62,137 bases of DNA. Source: an uncultured Planctomycetota bacterium. Its GTDB lineage: Bacteria > Planctomycetota > Brocadiia > CAIUPP01. The notes under the pieces are model-generated. The model was not told the origin of the DNA and searched no databases. It worked only from the letters and a program-made list of their open reading frames with translations. The position numbers and the translations under genes are program-made. The DNA lies in NCBI GenBank assembly GCA_903901045.1, contig CAIUPP010000071.1, positions 1 to 62,137 on the forward strand, in the 5' to 3' direction. This document shows, one piece after another, positions 8,108 to 46,177 of this stretch (position 1 is its first letter; the number at the start of each line of letters is the position of its first letter).

Positions 8108-9136
8108 TCATGCCGCCTTCTGTATGCGCGCGATGCGCTCGAAAAGCTCCTGGAGCGCGAGGTTCATGGCGACGTTGGAGTCGATCATCCGGCGGGCGTT
8201 CCAGATCGCCTCCTCAATGCGCAGAATGCCGCTGACTCCCGGCGCGCCGGGGCGCGCGGCCCACTGCGAGGATTGCTCGGGCATGAAGGGCAGCTCGGCC
8301 GCTCCCACCCGTTCGGCCAGCAGATCGCGCCAGGCGCAGGAGAGCAGCCGCAGGAACTCGCGCACCCGCTCGCGCTGCGGCTCCAGCTTGGACGAAGTGG
8401 TGCGCGCCCAGTCGGCCACGCTGTCGGAAAGCTCGAAGGCTTCTCCGCGGCCGGCCGCGAGCAGCGGGGCGATCACCTCGCTGAATATCTCCCGCCCGCC
8501 GGAATCGAGGATGCCGAAGGCGCGGCCCGCCGAGCCGTTGGCGAAGCGCGCCGCGAATCGAACTTCCGCCTCCTCCAATTCAGGGCGCGTGCGGAGTATC
8601 TGGCGTATTTGCTCCGGCGTGAGGGGGCTGAAACGCACCTCCTGCGCGCGGGAGCGGATGGTCGGCAGAAGCGACTGGATGCGGCTGCTGGTCAGGATGA
8701 GCAGCGCGAAGGAGGCGGGCTCTTCAAGCGTTTTGAGCAGCGAATTTCCCGCCTCCTCGGTCAGGTTCTCCGCCTCGCGGATGATAGCGATGCGCCGTTC
8801 GGCCTGGACCGGCATGATGGTGAGGAAGTGGCCCAACTCGCGCGCCTGGTCGATGCCGATCAGCCGCTTCTCCTCCTGCGCCTGCATCACCAGCACGTCA
8901 GGGTGGGTTTCATGCTCCATCATCCGGCAGTCGCGGCAGACGCCGCAGGGGCGTTCGCCGGTGGCGCGGCAGAAGAGCGCCTTGGCCAGGTCGAGCGCCA
9001 GGAGGGTTTTGCCGACGCCGTCGGGGCCGCTGAAGAGGTAGGAGTGGCCGAGGCGGTTCTGCTCCACCGTGCGCTGCAAGAGTTGCTTGGTGCGGTCCTG
9101 CCCGATCACGCTGTCGAAACGCATGGCGGCGTTCAT
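8108..9136 (-). CDS. holB: DNA polymerase III delta-prime subunit-like protein
   Basis: 342 residues. AAA+ clamp-loader fold: Walker A GPDGVGKT at about residues 38-45, a zinc module C-x8-C-x2-C-x2-C (CRATGERPCGVCRDC), and sensor-1-type region LLILTSSRIQSLLPTIRSR. The arginine-finger SRC motif reads SRA, as often in delta-prime relatives. As delta-prime it would be the clamp-loader stator. Gamma/tau (DnaX) is less likely because of the length and the degenerate motifs. ATG at 9136 overlaps the stop of the lipoyl-like gene (ATGA); ATG at 9124 is an alternative. Confidence 0.88.
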   Translation of the reverse strand: MNAAMRFDSVIGQDRTKQLLQRTVEQNRLGHSYLFSGPDGVGKTLLALDLAKALFCRATGERPCGVCRDCRMMEHETHPDVLVMQAQEEKRLIGIDQARELGHFLTIMPVQAERRIAIIREAENLTEEAGNSLLKTLEEPASFALLILTSSRIQSLLPTIRSRAQEVRFSPLTPEQIRQILRTRPELEEAEVRFAARFANGSAGRAFGILDSGGREIFSEVIAPLLAAGRGEAFELSDSVADWARTTSSKLEPQRERVREFLRLLSCAWRDLLAERVGAAELPFMPEQSSQWAARPGAPGVSGILRIEEAIWNARRMIDSNVAMNLALQELFERIARIQKAA

Positions 9137-9438
9137 TCCTCAGGGGTGCTCAGGTCCAGGTCATCCACCTCCGGCTCCTCCTCCTCGGCCTCCTCTTCCT
9201 CGGGGCAGTCGAGCAGCGCGACGGGTTCGCCGCCGCGGACCGTCTCGTCTTCGTCCGCGATGCGCTCCAGCAGGACGCCGGCTTGCGGCGCGGTCACTTC
9301 GACGGTCCCCGATTCCGTGGAGATTTCCAGCAGGATCTCTCCCAGCTCGACGAACTCCCCTTCGTCGAAATGCCACTCAACGACCGTCCCCTGTTCGTTG
9401 TCCGTCCCGAGATCAGGCACTTCCACTTCCACGTTCAT
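9133..9438 (-). CDS. small lipoyl/biotinyl-like domain protein lacking the attachment lysine
   Basis: 101 residues from ATG 9438, which follows GGAGGGA by 5 nt; a longer frame to 9474 lacks such a site. Residues 1-80 fit a lipoyl domain (VEVPDLGTDNEQGTVVEW, FDEGEFVELGEILLEIST, ITAP-like turn). The beta-hairpin that normally reads TDKA carries TESG, so no lysine is available for lipoylation. The last ~25 residues are nearly all acidic. The gene leads the run to holB, panC and lgt and lies 1 kb from lipA-lipB. Function unknown; it may be a structural or binding module rather than a swinging arm. Confidence 0.75.
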   Translation of the reverse strand: MNVEVEVPDLGTDNEQGTVVEWHFDEGEFVELGEILLEISTESGTVEVTAPQAGVLLERIADEDETVRGGEPVALLDCPEEEEAEEEEPEVDDLDLSTPEE

Positions 9439-9476
9439 CGAAGTCCCTCCGCAGGTCAGGACCACAGGCTTCAATT

Positions 9477-9662: not shown

Positions 9663-10541
9663 TCAGCGCTCCGCGCAGGAGGCGTCATACAGCGCGCCGG
9701 CGTGGTATGAGCTTCGCACGAACGGGCCGCAGGCGGCTCCGGAGAACCCCATCTCGCGCGCGCAAGTCTCGTAGTCGGCGAAGCGTTCGGGCGTCACGAA
9801 CTCCTGCACCGGCAAGTGGTCGCGGCTGGGGGAGAGATACTGGCCGATAGTCAGCAGGTCGCAGCGCGCCGCGCGCAGGTCCGCCAGCGCGGCCATCATT
9901 TCCTCGCGCGTCTCGCCGAGTCCCGCCATCAGCCCGCTCTTGGTGCTGACTTCCGGATGCCGCTCCTTCACGAAAGCCAGCAGCGCGAGCGACCGGCGAT
10001 AATCCGCCTCCGGGCGCACGACCGGGTAGAGCCGGGGCACGGTTTCAATATTATGGTTATACACGTCGGGGCGGGCCGATGCCACGAGTTCGATGGCCTC
10101 CCGGTTGCCCTGAAAGTCGGGGGTAAGCACCTCGATGCGGCAGGCCATCCTGCGGCGCAGCGCCTCGATCGTGAGACGAAACTGCCCGGCGCCGCCATCG
10201 GGTAAGTCGTCGCGGGTGACGGAGGTGACGACCACGTGCGCCAGCTTCAACTTCGCGGCGGCCTCGGCGAGGCGTTCCGGCTCCTGCGGGTCCGGCGGCT
10301 CGACGGGGCCGTGCCCCACGGCGCAGAAGCGGCAGTTGCGCGTGCAGCCGTTGCCCAGGATCATGAAGGTGGCCGTCCCGCGCGCGAAACATTCGCACTG
10401 GTTGGGACAGTGCGCGCTCTGGCAGACCGTGGATAGCCGCAGCCCGCGCAGCAGGTCGCGCACTTCGTCGGCCACGCCGCCTGAGGGGAGGCGCTTCTTG
10501 AGCCAGGGAGGGAATCTCGACGGGCGGGGTGACTCCGTCAC
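9663..10541 (-). CDS. lipA: lipoyl synthase LipA
   Basis: About 292 residues from GTG 10541, whose GTGA overlaps the lipB stop; GGGAGGAGAGG lies just upstream. Radical-SAM enzyme that inserts two sulfurs into octanoyl chains on carrier domains. Both cluster motifs are seen: the auxiliary one [12 protein letters not shown] and the SAM one [45 protein letters not shown] and the C-terminal RSSYHAG complete the family pattern. With LipB this supplies lipoyl cofactor, consistent with the lipoyl carrier at 44.3-44.6 kb and the dihydrolipoamide dehydrogenase next to it. Confidence 0.96.
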
Positions 10542-11224
10542 GGCCTCTCCTCCCGGCGCATCGCCGTCATCGTTTGCCCGGCGTCGAACCCGAATTCGAC
10601 CATGAAGTGGCGGATGATCCGTCCCTCCACCTCCGCGCGCTCGGGCGCGCGGCCCAGGATGCTTTCCATCGAGGCCATCTTCACGCCGACCAGCCCGCAC
10701 GGGTTAATGAGCCGGAAATGCTCCATGTTCGGGGAGACGTTGAGGGCGAAGCCGTGGTAGCTGACCCAATGGCTGATTGCGATGCCGATGGAGGCGATCT
10801 TCCCCTGCGGCGTCCAGACGCCGGTGAAGCCTTCCTTGCGATCGGCCTTGATGTTGTACTCCCAGAGGGCGGCCATGAGGACCGACTCGATCCGCCGCAG
10901 GTACTTGTGAACATCCTTGCCGTGGTGCTCCAGCGGCAGGATGGGGTAGCCGACGATCTGGCCGGGGCCGTGGTAGGTGACATCGCCGCCGCGGTTGGTC
11001 TCGCGCACCTCGACGCCGACGGCGGAGAGATGCGCGCGCGGGACGAGGATGTTCTGCTCGGTTCCGCCGCGGCCGATGGTGAGGATGGGGGGATGCTCCA
11101 GCAGGATCAGCGCGCCGGCGTCGCGCGGCGTTCTGGTGAAGTCTTCCACCAGCTCGCGCTGAAAGCCGAGCGCCTCGTCATAGCCGACGGTTCCGAGACG
11201 ATAGATTGTGAGTGTGCGCGGCAT
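10538..11224 (-). CDS. lipB: octanoyltransferase LipB
   Basis: 228 residues. Transfers octanoyl groups from acyl carrier protein to lipoyl domains, the first step of lipoate synthesis. Motifs: [33 protein letters not shown] (the conserved RGG-x-x-T-x-HGPGQ block), [16 protein letters not shown], the catalytic-lysine region and [19 protein letters not shown] with the catalytic Cys. ATG at 11224 follows GGGAG. It is coupled to lipA by a 4-nt overlap. Confidence 0.96.
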
Positions 11225-12326: not shown

Positions 12327-12354
12327 TTGGGCAAGGCATGCCTTGCCCCTACAA
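12327..12354. repeat. GGCAAGGCATGCCTTGCC palindrome, copy 1
   Basis: Perfect 20-bp palindrome at 12329-12348 followed by CCTACAA. Other copies are at 44669-44694 and 50614-50645, and relatives with a GCGCAGCATGCTGCGC core lie at 18170-18189 and 55341-55360. It sits in the divergent region between the recombinase and the NfeD/FloA operon. Confidence 0.8.
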
Positions 12355-42665: not shown

Positions 42666-42686
42666 AAGCCGGCGCTGCAGCAGATG

Positions 42687-42724
42687 AAAAAGGCCCGGGC
42701 CGCTCATGCGCGACCCGGGCCTTT
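42687..42724 (-). terminator. intrinsic terminator of the lpd-metF run
   Basis: On the minus strand AAAGGCCCGGG and CCCGGGCCTTT form an 11-bp GC-rich stem with a 14-nt loop, followed by a run of five T. It starts 15 bp after the metF stop, the clearest factor-independent terminator in the window. Confidence 0.85.
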
Positions 42725-42738
42725 CCATTCCAACCTGC

Positions 42739-43638
42739 TTAGGCCGACGCGGCGTCCACGATCTGGCCGACGGTGTCGTCCCAGCCCAGGGGCATGATGT
42801 GCGCGCCCTGGCACATGGGCTTCATCTGCTTGATGAGCCGCGCGGAGACTTCCACCGCCTTCTTCTTGGTCTGGTCCTTCGGCGTCTCGGAGAGTTCCTT
42901 CATCAGCGGCTCGGGAACCACCACGCCGGGGACGTTCTCGTTCATGTACTTGGCCATGCCAAGACCCTTGAGCACGACGATGCCGACCATGATGGGGATC
43001 TGGATGTTCCGGCGGCGCACCTCGTTCATGAACTTCTCGAACGCGGCCGCGTCATACACCGCCTGCGTCTGGCAGAACTGCGCGCCGGCGGCGACTTTCT
43101 TCTCGAGCTTGAGGATCTGCGCCTCGACCATGTCGGAGCAGGGGGTGACGACGCACCCCTTGAAGAACTTCGGCGCGCCTTCCAGCTTGTTCGGGCGGCC
43201 CTTGAAGTCCTTGCCCATGTCCGATCCGCTTTCGAGGATCGTTGCGGCCTTGAGCAGCTGCACGCTATCGAGGTCATAGACCGGCTTGGCGTCGCGGTGA
43301 TCTCCCTTGACGACGTGGTCGCCGGTGATGGCCAGGACGTTGCGAATGCCCAGCACGTAGGCGTTGAGCAGGTCGCTCTGGAGGGCCAGGCGGTTGCGGT
43401 CGCGGCAGACCATCTGGAAGACGGGCTCGACGCCGGCCTCGACCAGCTTGGCGGAGACGGCCAGCGAACCCAGGCGCATGACGGCGGTCTGGATGTCGGT
43501 GACGTTGATGGCGACCACCTTGTCCTTCATGACGGCGGCGCCTTCCATCACGTGGTGGAGATCCACCCCTTTGGGCGGGCCCACTTCACCGGTGAACGTG
43601 AAATGTCCGGCGGCAAGAGATTGTTCGAGCTTGCTCAT
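42739..43638 (-). CDS. metF: methylenetetrahydrofolate reductase MetF
   Basis: 299 residues. TIM-barrel flavoprotein reducing 5,10-methylene- to 5-methyl-tetrahydrofolate. Signs: FTFTGEVGPPKGVDL with the catalytic Glu, INVTDIQTAVMRLGSLAVS, VFQMVCRDRNRLALQSDLL, LAITGDHVVKGDH, GAQFCQTQAVYDAAAFEKF. The compact form without extensions is that found with MetV in acetogens and other anaerobes; its electron source is then not NADH directly. It starts with ATGA overlapping the metV stop, so the two are coupled. Confidence 0.94.
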   Translation of the reverse strand: MSKLEQSLAAGHFTFTGEVGPPKGVDLHHVMEGAAVMKDKVVAINVTDIQTAVMRLGSLAVSAKLVEAGVEPVFQMVCRDRNRLALQSDLLNAYVLGIRNVLAITGDHVVKGDHRDAKPVYDLDSVQLLKAATILESGSDMGKDFKGRPNKLEGAPKFFKGCVVTPCSDMVEAQILKLEKKVAAGAQFCQTQAVYDAAAFEKFMNEVRRRNIQIPIMVGIVVLKGLGMAKYMNENVPGVVVPEPLMKELSETPKDQTKKKAVEVSARLIKQMKPMCQGAHIMPLGWDDTVGQIVDAASA

Positions 43639-44306
43639 TTCTTGATCCCCTCAGGTGTCTTTTTGGGCCAGGTGAATTGACGAGGCGTGTGGCGGCTGCC
43701 TTGGTCCTTGGCGGGCTGATACGCGCGCATCTTGTCCAGCTTGCCGAGGGCCTCCATCTTCTTGTAGATCAGCACCCAGCCGCAATCCTTCTCCGGGTCG
43801 ATTTCGCATTTGCCGCCCTTGGAGCCGCCGCAGGGGCCGTTGAGCAGTCCCTTCGCGCAGCGCGTGACCGGGCAGATGCCCTCGAACGCTTCCAGGACGC
43901 ACTGGCCGCAGGTGCTGCAGCGTTCAGTGTACTTGCCGAGGCGATTGACCTGGCCGACGAACAGCGAGTCGACCCCGATGTGCGCCTTCTTCTCCAGGGT
44001 CTCGCCGATGGTCTGCGCTCCGGTGCCGCAGGCCATGACGAGGATCGAATCGGCCTCCTTGATCGCCTGCTCGTACTCCCGCGCCTTCTGACGCACCGCG
44101 CCGAGTTGGCAGGCGGTGTCGAACACGGCCGTTCCTGTGATGCTCTTCCCGGCGGCCTCCAGGCGGGCCTTCATCTCGACCAACTCCTCCTCGCCTCCGG
44201 TCTTGCAGGCGGCGGCGCAATCGGCGCAGCCGGCGAGGAACACTTTTTGCTCGCCTTCGAGGGACTTCAGAATGTCCTCGAACGCTTTCTGTTTCTGAAT
44301 AATCAC
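43635..44306 (-). CDS. metV: MetV-like zinc/iron-sulfur partner of MetF
   Basis: 223 residues from GTG 44306, 5 nt after GGAGG. Matches the MTHFR C-terminal-type cysteine-rich protein family: VFLAGCADCAAACKTGGEEE, VMACGTGAQTIGE, CSTCGQCVLEAFEGICPVTRC and GLLNGPCGGSKGGKCEI. The many cysteines should bind zinc and/or iron-sulfur clusters. In acetogens MetV and MetF form the reductase together, and MetV is thought to pass electrons. Here it follows a lipoyl carrier by 16 bp and overlaps metF by 4 nt. Confidence 0.9.
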   Translation of the reverse strand: MIIQKQKAFEDILKSLEGEQKVFLAGCADCAAACKTGGEEELVEMKARLEAAGKSITGTAVFDTACQLGAVRQKAREYEQAIKEADSILVMACGTGAQTIGETLEKKAHIGVDSLFVGQVNRLGKYTERCSTCGQCVLEAFEGICPVTRCAKGLLNGPCGGSKGGKCEIDPEKDCGWVLIYKKMEALGKLDKMRAYQPAKDQGSRHTPRQFTWPKKTPEGIKK

Positions 44307-44322
44307 GGGCGCCTCCAGACAG

Positions 44323-44568
44323 TTACTTGGTTTCGACGATTGCCAACAGGCCGCCAACCGACACGAGGTCCTCTTCCTTAGCGACGATTTTCTTCACCTT
44401 GCCGGTGACGGGGGAGGGGACGTTGAACGTCGCCTTGTCGGTCACCATTTCACAGAAATCGTCCCCCTCTTTCACGTCAGAGCCTTCCTTCACAAAGAAG
44501 AAGGAGACCGTCGCTTCTTCGGGCGCGTCCTTGCCGAGTTCCGGCAACTTCACCTCAAAGTCGGCCAT
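44323..44568 (-). CDS. stand-alone lipoyl-domain carrier protein
   Basis: 81 residues from ATG 44568 (AAAGGAA upstream); the open frame extends further but the domain starts here. One E2-type lipoyl domain and nothing else: ADFEVKLPELGKDAPEEATV, DDFCEMVTDKATFNVPSP with the lipoylation Lys in TDKA, and VSVGGLLAIVE. No E2 catalytic or E1-binding domain is attached, and no 2-oxoacid dehydrogenase E1 is in the window. Its neighbours are a dihydrolipoamide dehydrogenase and MetV-MetF, so it may shuttle electrons between them; this is inference. Confidence 0.88.
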   Translation of the reverse strand: MADFEVKLPELGKDAPEEATVSFFFVKEGSDVKEGDDFCEMVTDKATFNVPSPVTGKVKKIVAKEEDLVSVGGLLAIVETK

Positions 44569-44668
44569 CGTCGTTCCTTTCGGTCGAAAAAAAGATCGCG
44601 TTACAGAACAGTAGTATAGCAAAATCCGCGGCAACCGAAAACTTGCGTCTTGCCCGACAGTACCCGCT

Positions 44669-44694
44669 GGGCAAGGCATGCCTTGCCCCTACAC
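44669..44694. repeat. GGCAAGGCATGCCTTGCC palindrome, copy 2
   Basis: Same 20-bp perfect palindrome plus CCTACA as at 12329 and 50617. It separates the lpd gene from the lipoyl-carrier gene within a same-strand run, so it may influence transcript processing there. Confidence 0.8.
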
Positions 44695-44707
44695 AACGGG
44701 GGAAAAG

Positions 44708-46081
44708 TCACACGTGAATCGCCTTGCCCAGCCAGGCCTCGGCGCACTCGGAGATCACTTCCGGCATCGTGGGGTGGGCGTGGATCGTGTTGGCGATGGA
44801 TTCGACCGTCGCTTCCATCGACATCGCCAGCGCCGCCTCGGCAATGAGGGCGGAGGAGTGCGCGCCGATGATATGCACGCCGATCACCTCGCCGCTCTTC
44901 GCGTCGGCGATGATCTTGGCCCAGCCGTAGGTCTCCCCCGTGGCCTGTGCCTTGCCCAGCGCCATGAAGGGGAACTTGGCTTCCTTGACGTCCAGCCCGG
45001 CCGCCTTGCACTCGACGTTGCTCTTGCCGACGGAAGAGATTTCGAACTCGGTGAAGACGCAGGCGGGGATGACGCGGTAGTCCATCTTGACGTGATGCCC
45101 CATGATGCTCTCGACGGCCACGATCCCCTGGCGCGTGGCGACGTGCGCCAGCATCATCTTCGCCGTTACGTCGCCGATGGCGTAAATGTTCGGCACGGAG
45201 GTGCGGCACTGCTCGTCGATCGTCACCGCGCCGCGCTCGGTCTTGACGCCCACCTCATCCAGCCCGATCCCCTTGGAGTTGATGGAGCGGCCGATCGAGA
45301 CCAGCACCTTCTCCACCTGAAGCTCCTGCCCGTTGGAGAGCTTGCACTTGGCGCCGGCGGCGTTGACCTCGACCGCTTCGACCTTCGTCCCCAGGAAGAT
45401 ATCCATCTTCTTTTTCTTGAACAGCCGGAAGAGTTCCTTGGCCAGGTCGGAGTCGCTACGCGGGAGAAGCTGGTCCATCAGCTCGACGATGGTCACCTGG
45501 CATCCGAACTGCTCGAAGATGCTCGCCCACTCGACGCCGATGTACCCGCCGCCGACGATGAGCATGCTGGCGGGAAGCTTGTCGAGCTTGAGCGCGTCGT
45601 CGCTGGTGAGGACGGTCTTGCCGTCGAAGGGGAAGCCGGGGAGACGCAGCGGCTCGGAGCCGGTGGCGAGGATGAGGTTCTCGCCCGTCACCTTGCGCGC
45701 GGCGCCGTCGGCGGTCACCTCGATGGTGTGCTTGTCCAGCAGTTTGCCGCGGCCGCGGATGACGTCGATCTTGTTCTTCTTCATCAGCGATTCGATCCCC
45801 TTGCGGAGGCGCTCGCTGACTTCCTCCTTGCGCTTCATTACGCGCGTGAAGTCGGGCTTCGACTCGCTGCAGGTGAAGCCGAACTCCGCGCCGCGCTTGG
45901 TGGTGGAGTAGGAGTGCGCGCTTTCGATGAGCGCCTTGGTGGGGATGCAGCCGCGGTTGAGGCAGACGCCGCCGAGCTCGCGCTCCTCGATGATGCCCAC
46001 CTTCGCGCCGAGTTGCGCCGCCCGAATGCCCGCCACATACCCCCCGGGACCTGCCCCCAGGATCAGAATATCGTAGTCCAT
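44708..46081 (-). CDS. lpdA: dihydrolipoamide dehydrogenase
   Basis: 457 residues from ATG 46081 after GGAGAG. FAD/NAD disulfide reductase: DILILGAGPGGYVAGIRAAQ, GGVCLNRGCIPTKAL with the redox pair C-x4-C, SMLIVGGGYIGVEWASIFEQ, YAIGDVTAKMMLAHVA, and HAHPTMPEVISECAEA with the His-Glu active-site pair. It re-oxidises dihydrolipoyl carriers with NAD+, or runs backward with NADH. It is not beside 2-oxoacid dehydrogenase or glycine-cleavage genes; instead a lone lipoyl carrier, MetV and MetF follow on the same strand. Confidence 0.95.
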   Translation of the reverse strand: MDYDILILGAGPGGYVAGIRAAQLGAKVGIIEERELGGVCLNRGCIPTKALIESAHSYSTTKRGAEFGFTCSESKPDFTRVMKRKEEVSERLRKGIESLMKKNKIDVIRGRGKLLDKHTIEVTADGAARKVTGENLILATGSEPLRLPGFPFDGKTVLTSDDALKLDKLPASMLIVGGGYIGVEWASIFEQFGCQVTIVELMDQLLPRSDSDLAKELFRLFKKKKMDIFLGTKVEAVEVNAAGAKCKLSNGQELQVEKVLVSIGRSINSKGIGLDEVGVKTERGAVTIDEQCRTSVPNIYAIGDVTAKMMLAHVATRQGIVAVESIMGHHVKMDYRVIPACVFTEFEISSVGKSNVECKAAGLDVKEAKFPFMALGKAQATGETYGWAKIIADAKSGEVIGVHIIGAHSSALIAEAALAMSMEATVESIANTIHAHPTMPEVISECAEAWLGKAIHV

Positions 46082-46177
46082 GACTCTCTCCAGAACAGTG
46101 TGACACGCGGTCAAAGAGTTCGTAATTATACGAAGGGCGGGGCTGTACGGTCAATTGCATGTGTGGGGGGGGGCGGT

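Follow-up and report, generated by a model that had tools for sequence, protein, structure and literature searches.

A lone lipoyl-domain protein encoded beside metVF is a candidate electron donor of methylenetetrahydrofolate reductase

The lpd-lip-metV-metF genes of a planctomycetal contig

We analysed a stretch of 62,137 nt (hereafter the window), contig CAIUPP010000071.1 of assembly GCA_903901045.1, from an uncultured Planctomycetota bacterium whose genome, G000, is assembled to 4.77 Mb and 94% completeness. The window contains lpd, lip, metV and metF, in this order and on the same strand, which encode a dihydrolipoamide dehydrogenase (Lpd), a free-standing lipoyl-domain protein (the carrier) and the two subunits of a methylenetetrahydrofolate (methylene-THF) reductase. 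A preliminary description of this locus had proposed that Lpd reduces the lipoyl carrier, which then hands electrons to MetV and MetF. Its gene order and gene calls are confirmed by profile matches, and the strong terminator that it placed at the end of the run is borne out by the folding energy of the hairpin (Table 1).

Table 1. Features of the gene set and of the lipoate-making genes in the window (MFE, minimum free energy)
Feature	Position	Strand	Size or motif	Support
lpd, dihydrolipoamide dehydrogenase	44708-46081	minus	457 aa, ATG	TIGR01350 571.8 bits (cut-off 408.8)
lip, lone lipoyl-domain carrier	44323-44568	minus	81 aa, ATG	PF00364 E 4e-17
metV, Cys-rich electron-transfer subunit	43635-44306	minus	223 aa, GTG	PF12225 E 5e-33
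metF, methylene-THF reductase catalytic subunit	42739-43638	minus	299 aa, ATG	PF02219 E 1.5e-37
Rho-independent terminator, 3′ of metF	42680-42738	minus	hairpin and T run	MFE -39.9 kcal/mol, z -6.5
Predicted sigma-70-like promoter, 5′ of lpd	46125-46154	minus	TTGACC-18-TATAAT	consensus scan, 11/12
lipB-type octanoyl transferase	10538-11224	minus		PF21948 LplA-B_cat E 5e-43
lipA, lipoyl synthase (cofactor maker), 33 kb from the set	9663-10700	minus		PF04055, PF16881

The window Lpd contains the redox disulfide (CLNRGCIPTK) and the His-Glu pair (HAHPTMPE). As had been described, the carrier is a lone lipoyl domain with an intact lipoylatable lysine, found in the sequence EMVTDKATFNV with DKA at the tip of the beta-turn. 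It is not the E2 component of a 2-oxoacid dehydrogenase, being only 81 residues long and devoid of PF00198, and the E1/E2 gene sets of G000 are located on other contigs. Neither is it a GcvH, the H protein of glycine cleavage, for PF00364 is the one family that it matches at the threshold applied and the locus is absent from the PF01597 matches. The joint presence of PF02219 and PF12225 and the conserved cysteines of MetV (10 are invariant in 49 out of 49 aligned MetVs) fit a reductase of the MetVF type, and a genome search found no methylene-THF reductase gene in G000 other than the window metF. Sequence searches of the PDB returned no MetV relative. An AlphaFold model of MetV (pLDDT, the predicted local distance difference test score, of 82.6) matched only generic alpha/beta structures in the PDB, the best being Dph2 at Z 11, and these matches, in which the Cys-rich C-terminal part is barely covered, say nothing on the electron donor.

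The starts of the four genes had been called coupled. Here lip and metV are separated by 16 bp, with a GGAGG preceding the GTG of metV, and metV overlaps metF by 4 bp, but lpd may be only loosely attached. Apart from lpd and lip, the surroundings of metVF in the window comprise tsaE and pfk, and no rnfC2, hdrA or mvhD gene adjoins it. Furthermore, the set stands outside the Wood-Ljungdahl pathway, as had been stated, because the beta subunit of acetyl-CoA synthase (PF03598) was not found in G000.

Lone lipoyl genes in the Planctomycetota and beyond

The distribution of the arrangement was studied in a phylum sample of 246 genomes from 87 families, where the names of neighbouring genes were read from translations except at loci where Pfam was run, and in 80 named loci obtained when MetVs of the window-type clade were scanned against GTDB representatives (L116, L117, L118 and L119 coincide with contigs of genomes G114, G055, G080 and G098, respectively, and were counted once). 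A neighbourhood search of the kind that the preliminary description had suggested revealed a lone lipoyl gene directly 5′ of metV, on the same strand, in six genomes. Three of them represent three families of Planctomycetota (G000, G055 and G114, the only genomes of the phylum sample with lip beside metVF) and the other three are metagenome-assembled genomes (MAGs), namely G246 and G248, labelled Clostridia (loci L120 and L122), and G247, labelled only as a bacterium (L121). The lysine is kept in all six metV-linked carriers. Searches of the open-licence literature turned up no account of a lone lipoyl domain next to metV.

The strongest evidence in the case comes from G246, G247 and G248, where a lone lipoyl protein of 77-78 aa is encoded before metV. 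The gene row fhs-lip-metV-lpd-lipB-lipA is common to L120 and L122, and continues with metF-fchA in the latter. Genome searches of the three gave no match to E2, GcvP or GcvH, and the carrier is their only lipoyl-type domain, the remaining PF00364 matches being biotin carriers (EAMKI/EAMKL) and one membrane-fusion protein. Consequently, apart from the carrier, no client of LipB, LipA and Lpd can be seen in these genomes.

Within the Planctomycetota, about 36 of the 246 genomes have a relative of the lone lipoyl gene, which in most families is located in a lipA-(tmk)-holB neighbourhood, in some together with lpd and lipB. MetV (PF12225) occurs in 50 of the 246 genomes and is found in 11 of the 12 families with a lone lipoyl gene versus 24 of the 87 families overall (Fisher p value 9e-7, uncorrected for phylogeny). 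One of these 12, family f3, cannot count for carrier function because its lipoyl protein lacks the lysine, and the single family without MetV is f35. At the f35 loci L091, L096 and L097 a lysine-bearing lone lipoyl gene is found beside a conserved gene, which in L097 encodes ApbE, a flavin mononucleotide (FMN) transferase; another redox role of the carrier is possible in that family.

The carrier tree places the window carrier with lone planctomycetal lipoyl proteins and not with E2 lipoyl domains (93/97 support), and leaves undecided whether the carriers of G246-G248 and those of the Planctomycetota have a single origin together with metV. In the Lpd tree, the window protein clusters with planctomycetal Lpds generally and not with the metV-linked ones alone, and thus gives no special signal of co-inheritance. 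The MetV tree separates MetVs with neighbours of the heterodisulfide reductase (Hdr) type from those with Lpd or lipoyl neighbours. It unites the MetVs of the window, G055, G114, G080 and G098 in one clade (support of 99 in the SH-like approximate likelihood-ratio test), within a larger group that also takes in G246-G248 and a number of Omnitrophota and lies close to those acetogen MetVs whose genes have lpd after them.

The neighbours of metVF in the phylum are of two kinds: either a Pyr_redox/Fer4/FlpD protein (in the anammox family and its kin) or HdrA and MvhD, or else Lpd (family f13), the lipoyl protein (f47 and f66) or both (the window). No metVF locus of the phylum has neighbours of both kinds. 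The first kind is represented by a gene preceding metV at L196:4265-6331, and at the same place in other loci of the anammox family, for a fusion of Pyr_redox, Fer4_20 and FlpD (MvhD); this fusion is a likely NAD(P)H-oxidising donor of the anammox MetVF.

Several further lipoyl-like genes were encountered. The window itself encodes, at 9133-9474 on the minus strand in a lipB-lipA-X-holB row, an acidic-tailed lipoyl-like protein in which the lysine is lost (ISTESGTVEV); its f3 relatives (L100, L101 and L104) are also without lysine and its anammox relatives retain it. The sole GcvH-like gene of G000 (L001:1318-1872) has a speD-like gene close by, and its usual lysine is seemingly replaced (EGTEGIKDLASP); GcvP is absent from this genome. 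Finally, L015:3145-3645 (contig C26 of G000) and L254:1492-1968 (G114) encode stand-alone proteins of about 160 aa that resemble a lipoyl domain joined to an E3-binding region, with no E2 catalytic domain, and no E1 gene is found beside the one on C26.

Electron supply to MetVF and competing explanations

Given that the genes recur, together with those for making lipoate, in distant microbes with no other apparent need of lipoate in some of them, the carrier probably serves MetVF as an electron shuttle. We therefore favour, from gene content and order, a MetVF reductase that would have the lipoyl carrier, recharged by Lpd, as its electron-input module. For the narrower proposition, that MetVF has as its donor a free-standing lipoyl protein dedicated to it and recharged by Lpd, and that this is the only job of lipoate in the Wood-Ljungdahl organisms G246-G248, we regard the case as evenly balanced.

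Under this hypothesis, NADH (about -320 mV) would reduce Lpd, and Lpd the lipoyl group of the lone carrier (about -290 mV). The carrier in its dithiol form would dock on MetV, whose [4Fe-4S] clusters would pass electrons one at a time to the FMN of MetF for the reduction of methylene-THF (about -200 mV) to methyl-THF. These potentials run downhill (PMC8515935, PMC6067878). Lipoylation of the carrier, the path and direction of the electrons and the contacts between the proteins are what we infer here. In G000, where acetyl-CoA synthase was not detected, methyl-THF would presumably enter methionine synthesis, and Lpd would be shared with three 2-oxoacid dehydrogenases. That a dithiol protein can feed a MetVF is indicated by the Clostridium ljungdahlii enzyme, for which reduced thioredoxin gave 7.4 U/mg (PMC8515935).

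A number of observations weigh against this reading. Chief among them, C. ljungdahlii MetVF, which prefers ferredoxin, showed no activity when given NADH together with free lipoamide and the Lpd of that organism (PMC8515935); protein-bound lipoyl was not among the reported tests (PMC8515935). The link between carrier and MetVF that had been proposed is supported by recurrence beside metV, including in genomes without other use of lipoate, but a dedicated Lpd is not. The genome search of G000 found a single true Lpd, that of the window (the one further match, 32% identical, appears to be of the MerA type), and G000 has three E2 genes, each with adjoining genes for E1 alpha and beta (two sets on contig C148 and one on C80), none of them with an adjoining Lpd. 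Because these sets lack one, the window Lpd very probably also serves the three complexes. The earlier remark that the surroundings hold no oxoacid dehydrogenase or glycine cleavage gene is true of the window, the three E1/E2 sets being elsewhere in the genome. E1/E2 or GcvP/GcvT genes elsewhere without their own carrier and Lpd had been named as grounds for rejection: E1/E2 sets without Lpd do exist, but the E2s bear their own lipoyl domains, which leaves the lone carrier unexplained by these complexes, and GcvP (PF02347) is absent from G000. Furthermore, G000, G055 and G114 all have E2s, so that Lpd and lipoate have other clients in each, and G246-G248 form a single clade of unknown completeness.

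Other points on the same side concern the genes themselves. The spacing between lpd and lip is 139 bp and holds one copy of a palindrome, which makes lpd the loosest member of the set and perhaps only loosely part of the same unit; folding of this gap is not unusual (z -0.6). The palindrome, a perfect 18-bp sequence (GGCAAGGCATGCCTTGCC), is found at positions 12330, 44670 and 50621 of the window, with a chance expectation of none. Seven sampled f35 genomes have a lone lipoyl gene and no MetV, and this, together with the lipA-tmk-holB location of most planctomycetal genes, points to one or more further uses of the carrier family. In the broad clade to which the window MetV belongs, many MetVs, from Omnitrophota and Bipolaricaulota, have neither lipoyl/Lpd nor Hdr-type neighbours.

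The f35 genes bear on the possibility that Lpd and the carrier form a dithiol redox pair of general use, serving for example a lipoate-dependent peroxidase or flavin-linked enzymes, and co-transcribed with metVF for regulation. Such a role would suit lone lipoyl genes that occur without MetV, in L097 beside an ApbE-like gene, and elsewhere mostly away from metV, but it predicts neither that the gene recurs next to metV in two groups distant from each other nor that in G248 it stands among one-carbon genes, from fhs to fchA, and we consider it unlikely.

The frequent location of the family beside lipA, and in some cases lipB, would also agree with a way-station for octanoyl or lipoyl groups on their way to E2s, which G000, G055 and G114 do have, much as GcvH serves LipL in Bacillus subtilis. 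However, G246-G248, which have the carrier along with lipB and lipA, contain no recipient of the E2 or GcvH kind, and a relay offers no reason for the adjacency of metV and lpd; this explanation is quite improbable.

We attach a similarly low probability to electron bifurcation, in which MetVF would oxidise the reduced carrier and reduce both ferredoxin and methylene-THF, according to a published GcvH-LpdA scheme (PMC8760232) with the carrier replacing GcvH. The scheme was presented as energetically feasible (PMC8760232), and the energy saving would pay in G055, G114, G246, G247 and G248, since all five have the acetyl-CoA synthase beta subunit. Its authors nevertheless judged it unlikely on the grounds that MetVF needs no second acceptor to oxidise ferredoxin (PMC8760232), the cluster has no extra flavin subunit, and G000, with no acetyl-CoA synthase detected, would have little need of it.

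Shared folate chemistry, in which Lpd and the lipoyl protein belong to glycine cleavage, or the carrier acts as H protein, and stand beside metVF merely since both use methylene-THF, is the published reading for lpdA of C. ljungdahlii (PMC8515935) and has a parallel in Desulfuromonadales and other deltaproteobacterial MAGs, where metVF is followed by gcvH (by Pfam, gcvT-gcvH-gcvPA-gcvPB in L181), but is highly improbable here given a carrier that matches PF00364 and not GCV_H, a G000 GcvH-like protein that appears to lack the usual lysine, and the absence of GcvP from all six lip-metV genomes. Glycine cleavage as the reason for the gene set is contradicted by the absence of GcvP in G000, G055 and G114. 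GcvP is present in 228 of the 246 phylum genomes, and the chance that these three all fall among the 18 without it is 3e-4, uncorrected for MAG incompleteness (completeness is only 81-84% in two of them). In the Aerophobetes loci L130 and L160, metV and metF form a single fused reading frame, a GcvH gene follows at a distance of 0.1-0.9 kb, and GcvP is elsewhere in the genome.

How MetVF reductases are fed with electrons is an open question of acetogen bioenergetics, as ferredoxin, though functional in vitro, is wasteful of energy, and NADH by itself fails. If the lipoyl carrier is indeed the donor, its recharging by Lpd would let NADH drive MetVF and would account for the occurrence of lpd next to metVF in many acetogens. 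Lipoate would then have a second known task other than acyl and aminomethyl transfer, the first being in sHdr sulfur oxidation, and in G246-G248 it would be a pure electron carrier of one-carbon metabolism. The idea is directly testable thanks to genomes that show no lipoate client besides the carrier.

Comparison with known systems

A lipoyl donor for acetogen MetVF has already been proposed, as "a lipoic acid binding cofactor" and in the GcvH/LpdA bifurcation scheme, by authors who considered it unlikely (PMC8760232). What appears to be new here is a dedicated carrier other than GcvH that recurs across two distant groups and, in some genomes, is the sole client of lipoate. The type II MetVF of acetogens (C. 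ljungdahlii and Eubacterium) resembles the window set in having MetV and MetF, with metVF beside lpd and MetV 42-46% identical to that of the window (tblastn). It differs in that the C. ljungdahlii enzyme takes ferredoxin and is inert with Lpd and free lipoamide (PMC8515935), and in that acetogen clusters contain GcvH, if any lipoyl protein, and not a lone lipoyl domain of 77-81 aa directly before metV.

Exchangeable modules are known from MetVF-RnfC2 of Acetobacterium woodii and MetVF-HdrABC-MvhD of Moorella (PMC8515935, PMC8760232). The window set would share with these a MetVF core joined to an exchangeable NADH-oxidising module, which here would consist of Lpd and the lipoyl carrier instead of RnfC2, HdrA or MvhD.

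Similarly, GcvH of glycine cleavage is a small lipoyl carrier between Lpd and folate chemistry, but belongs to another Pfam family, and the genomes with the metV-linked carrier have no GcvP. LbpA of sHdr sulfur oxidation is likewise a single lipoyl-domain protein that acts outside acyl and aminomethyl transfer and is encoded with maturation genes (PMC6067878), and it has been proposed to pass electrons to NAD via dihydrolipoamide dehydrogenase (PMC6067878). In contrast to LbpA, which is GcvH-like and accompanied by hdr-like genes and LplA-type ligases, neither of which is found beside the window carrier, the latter is a short E2-like domain encoded beside metVF in a genome with LipB and LipA.

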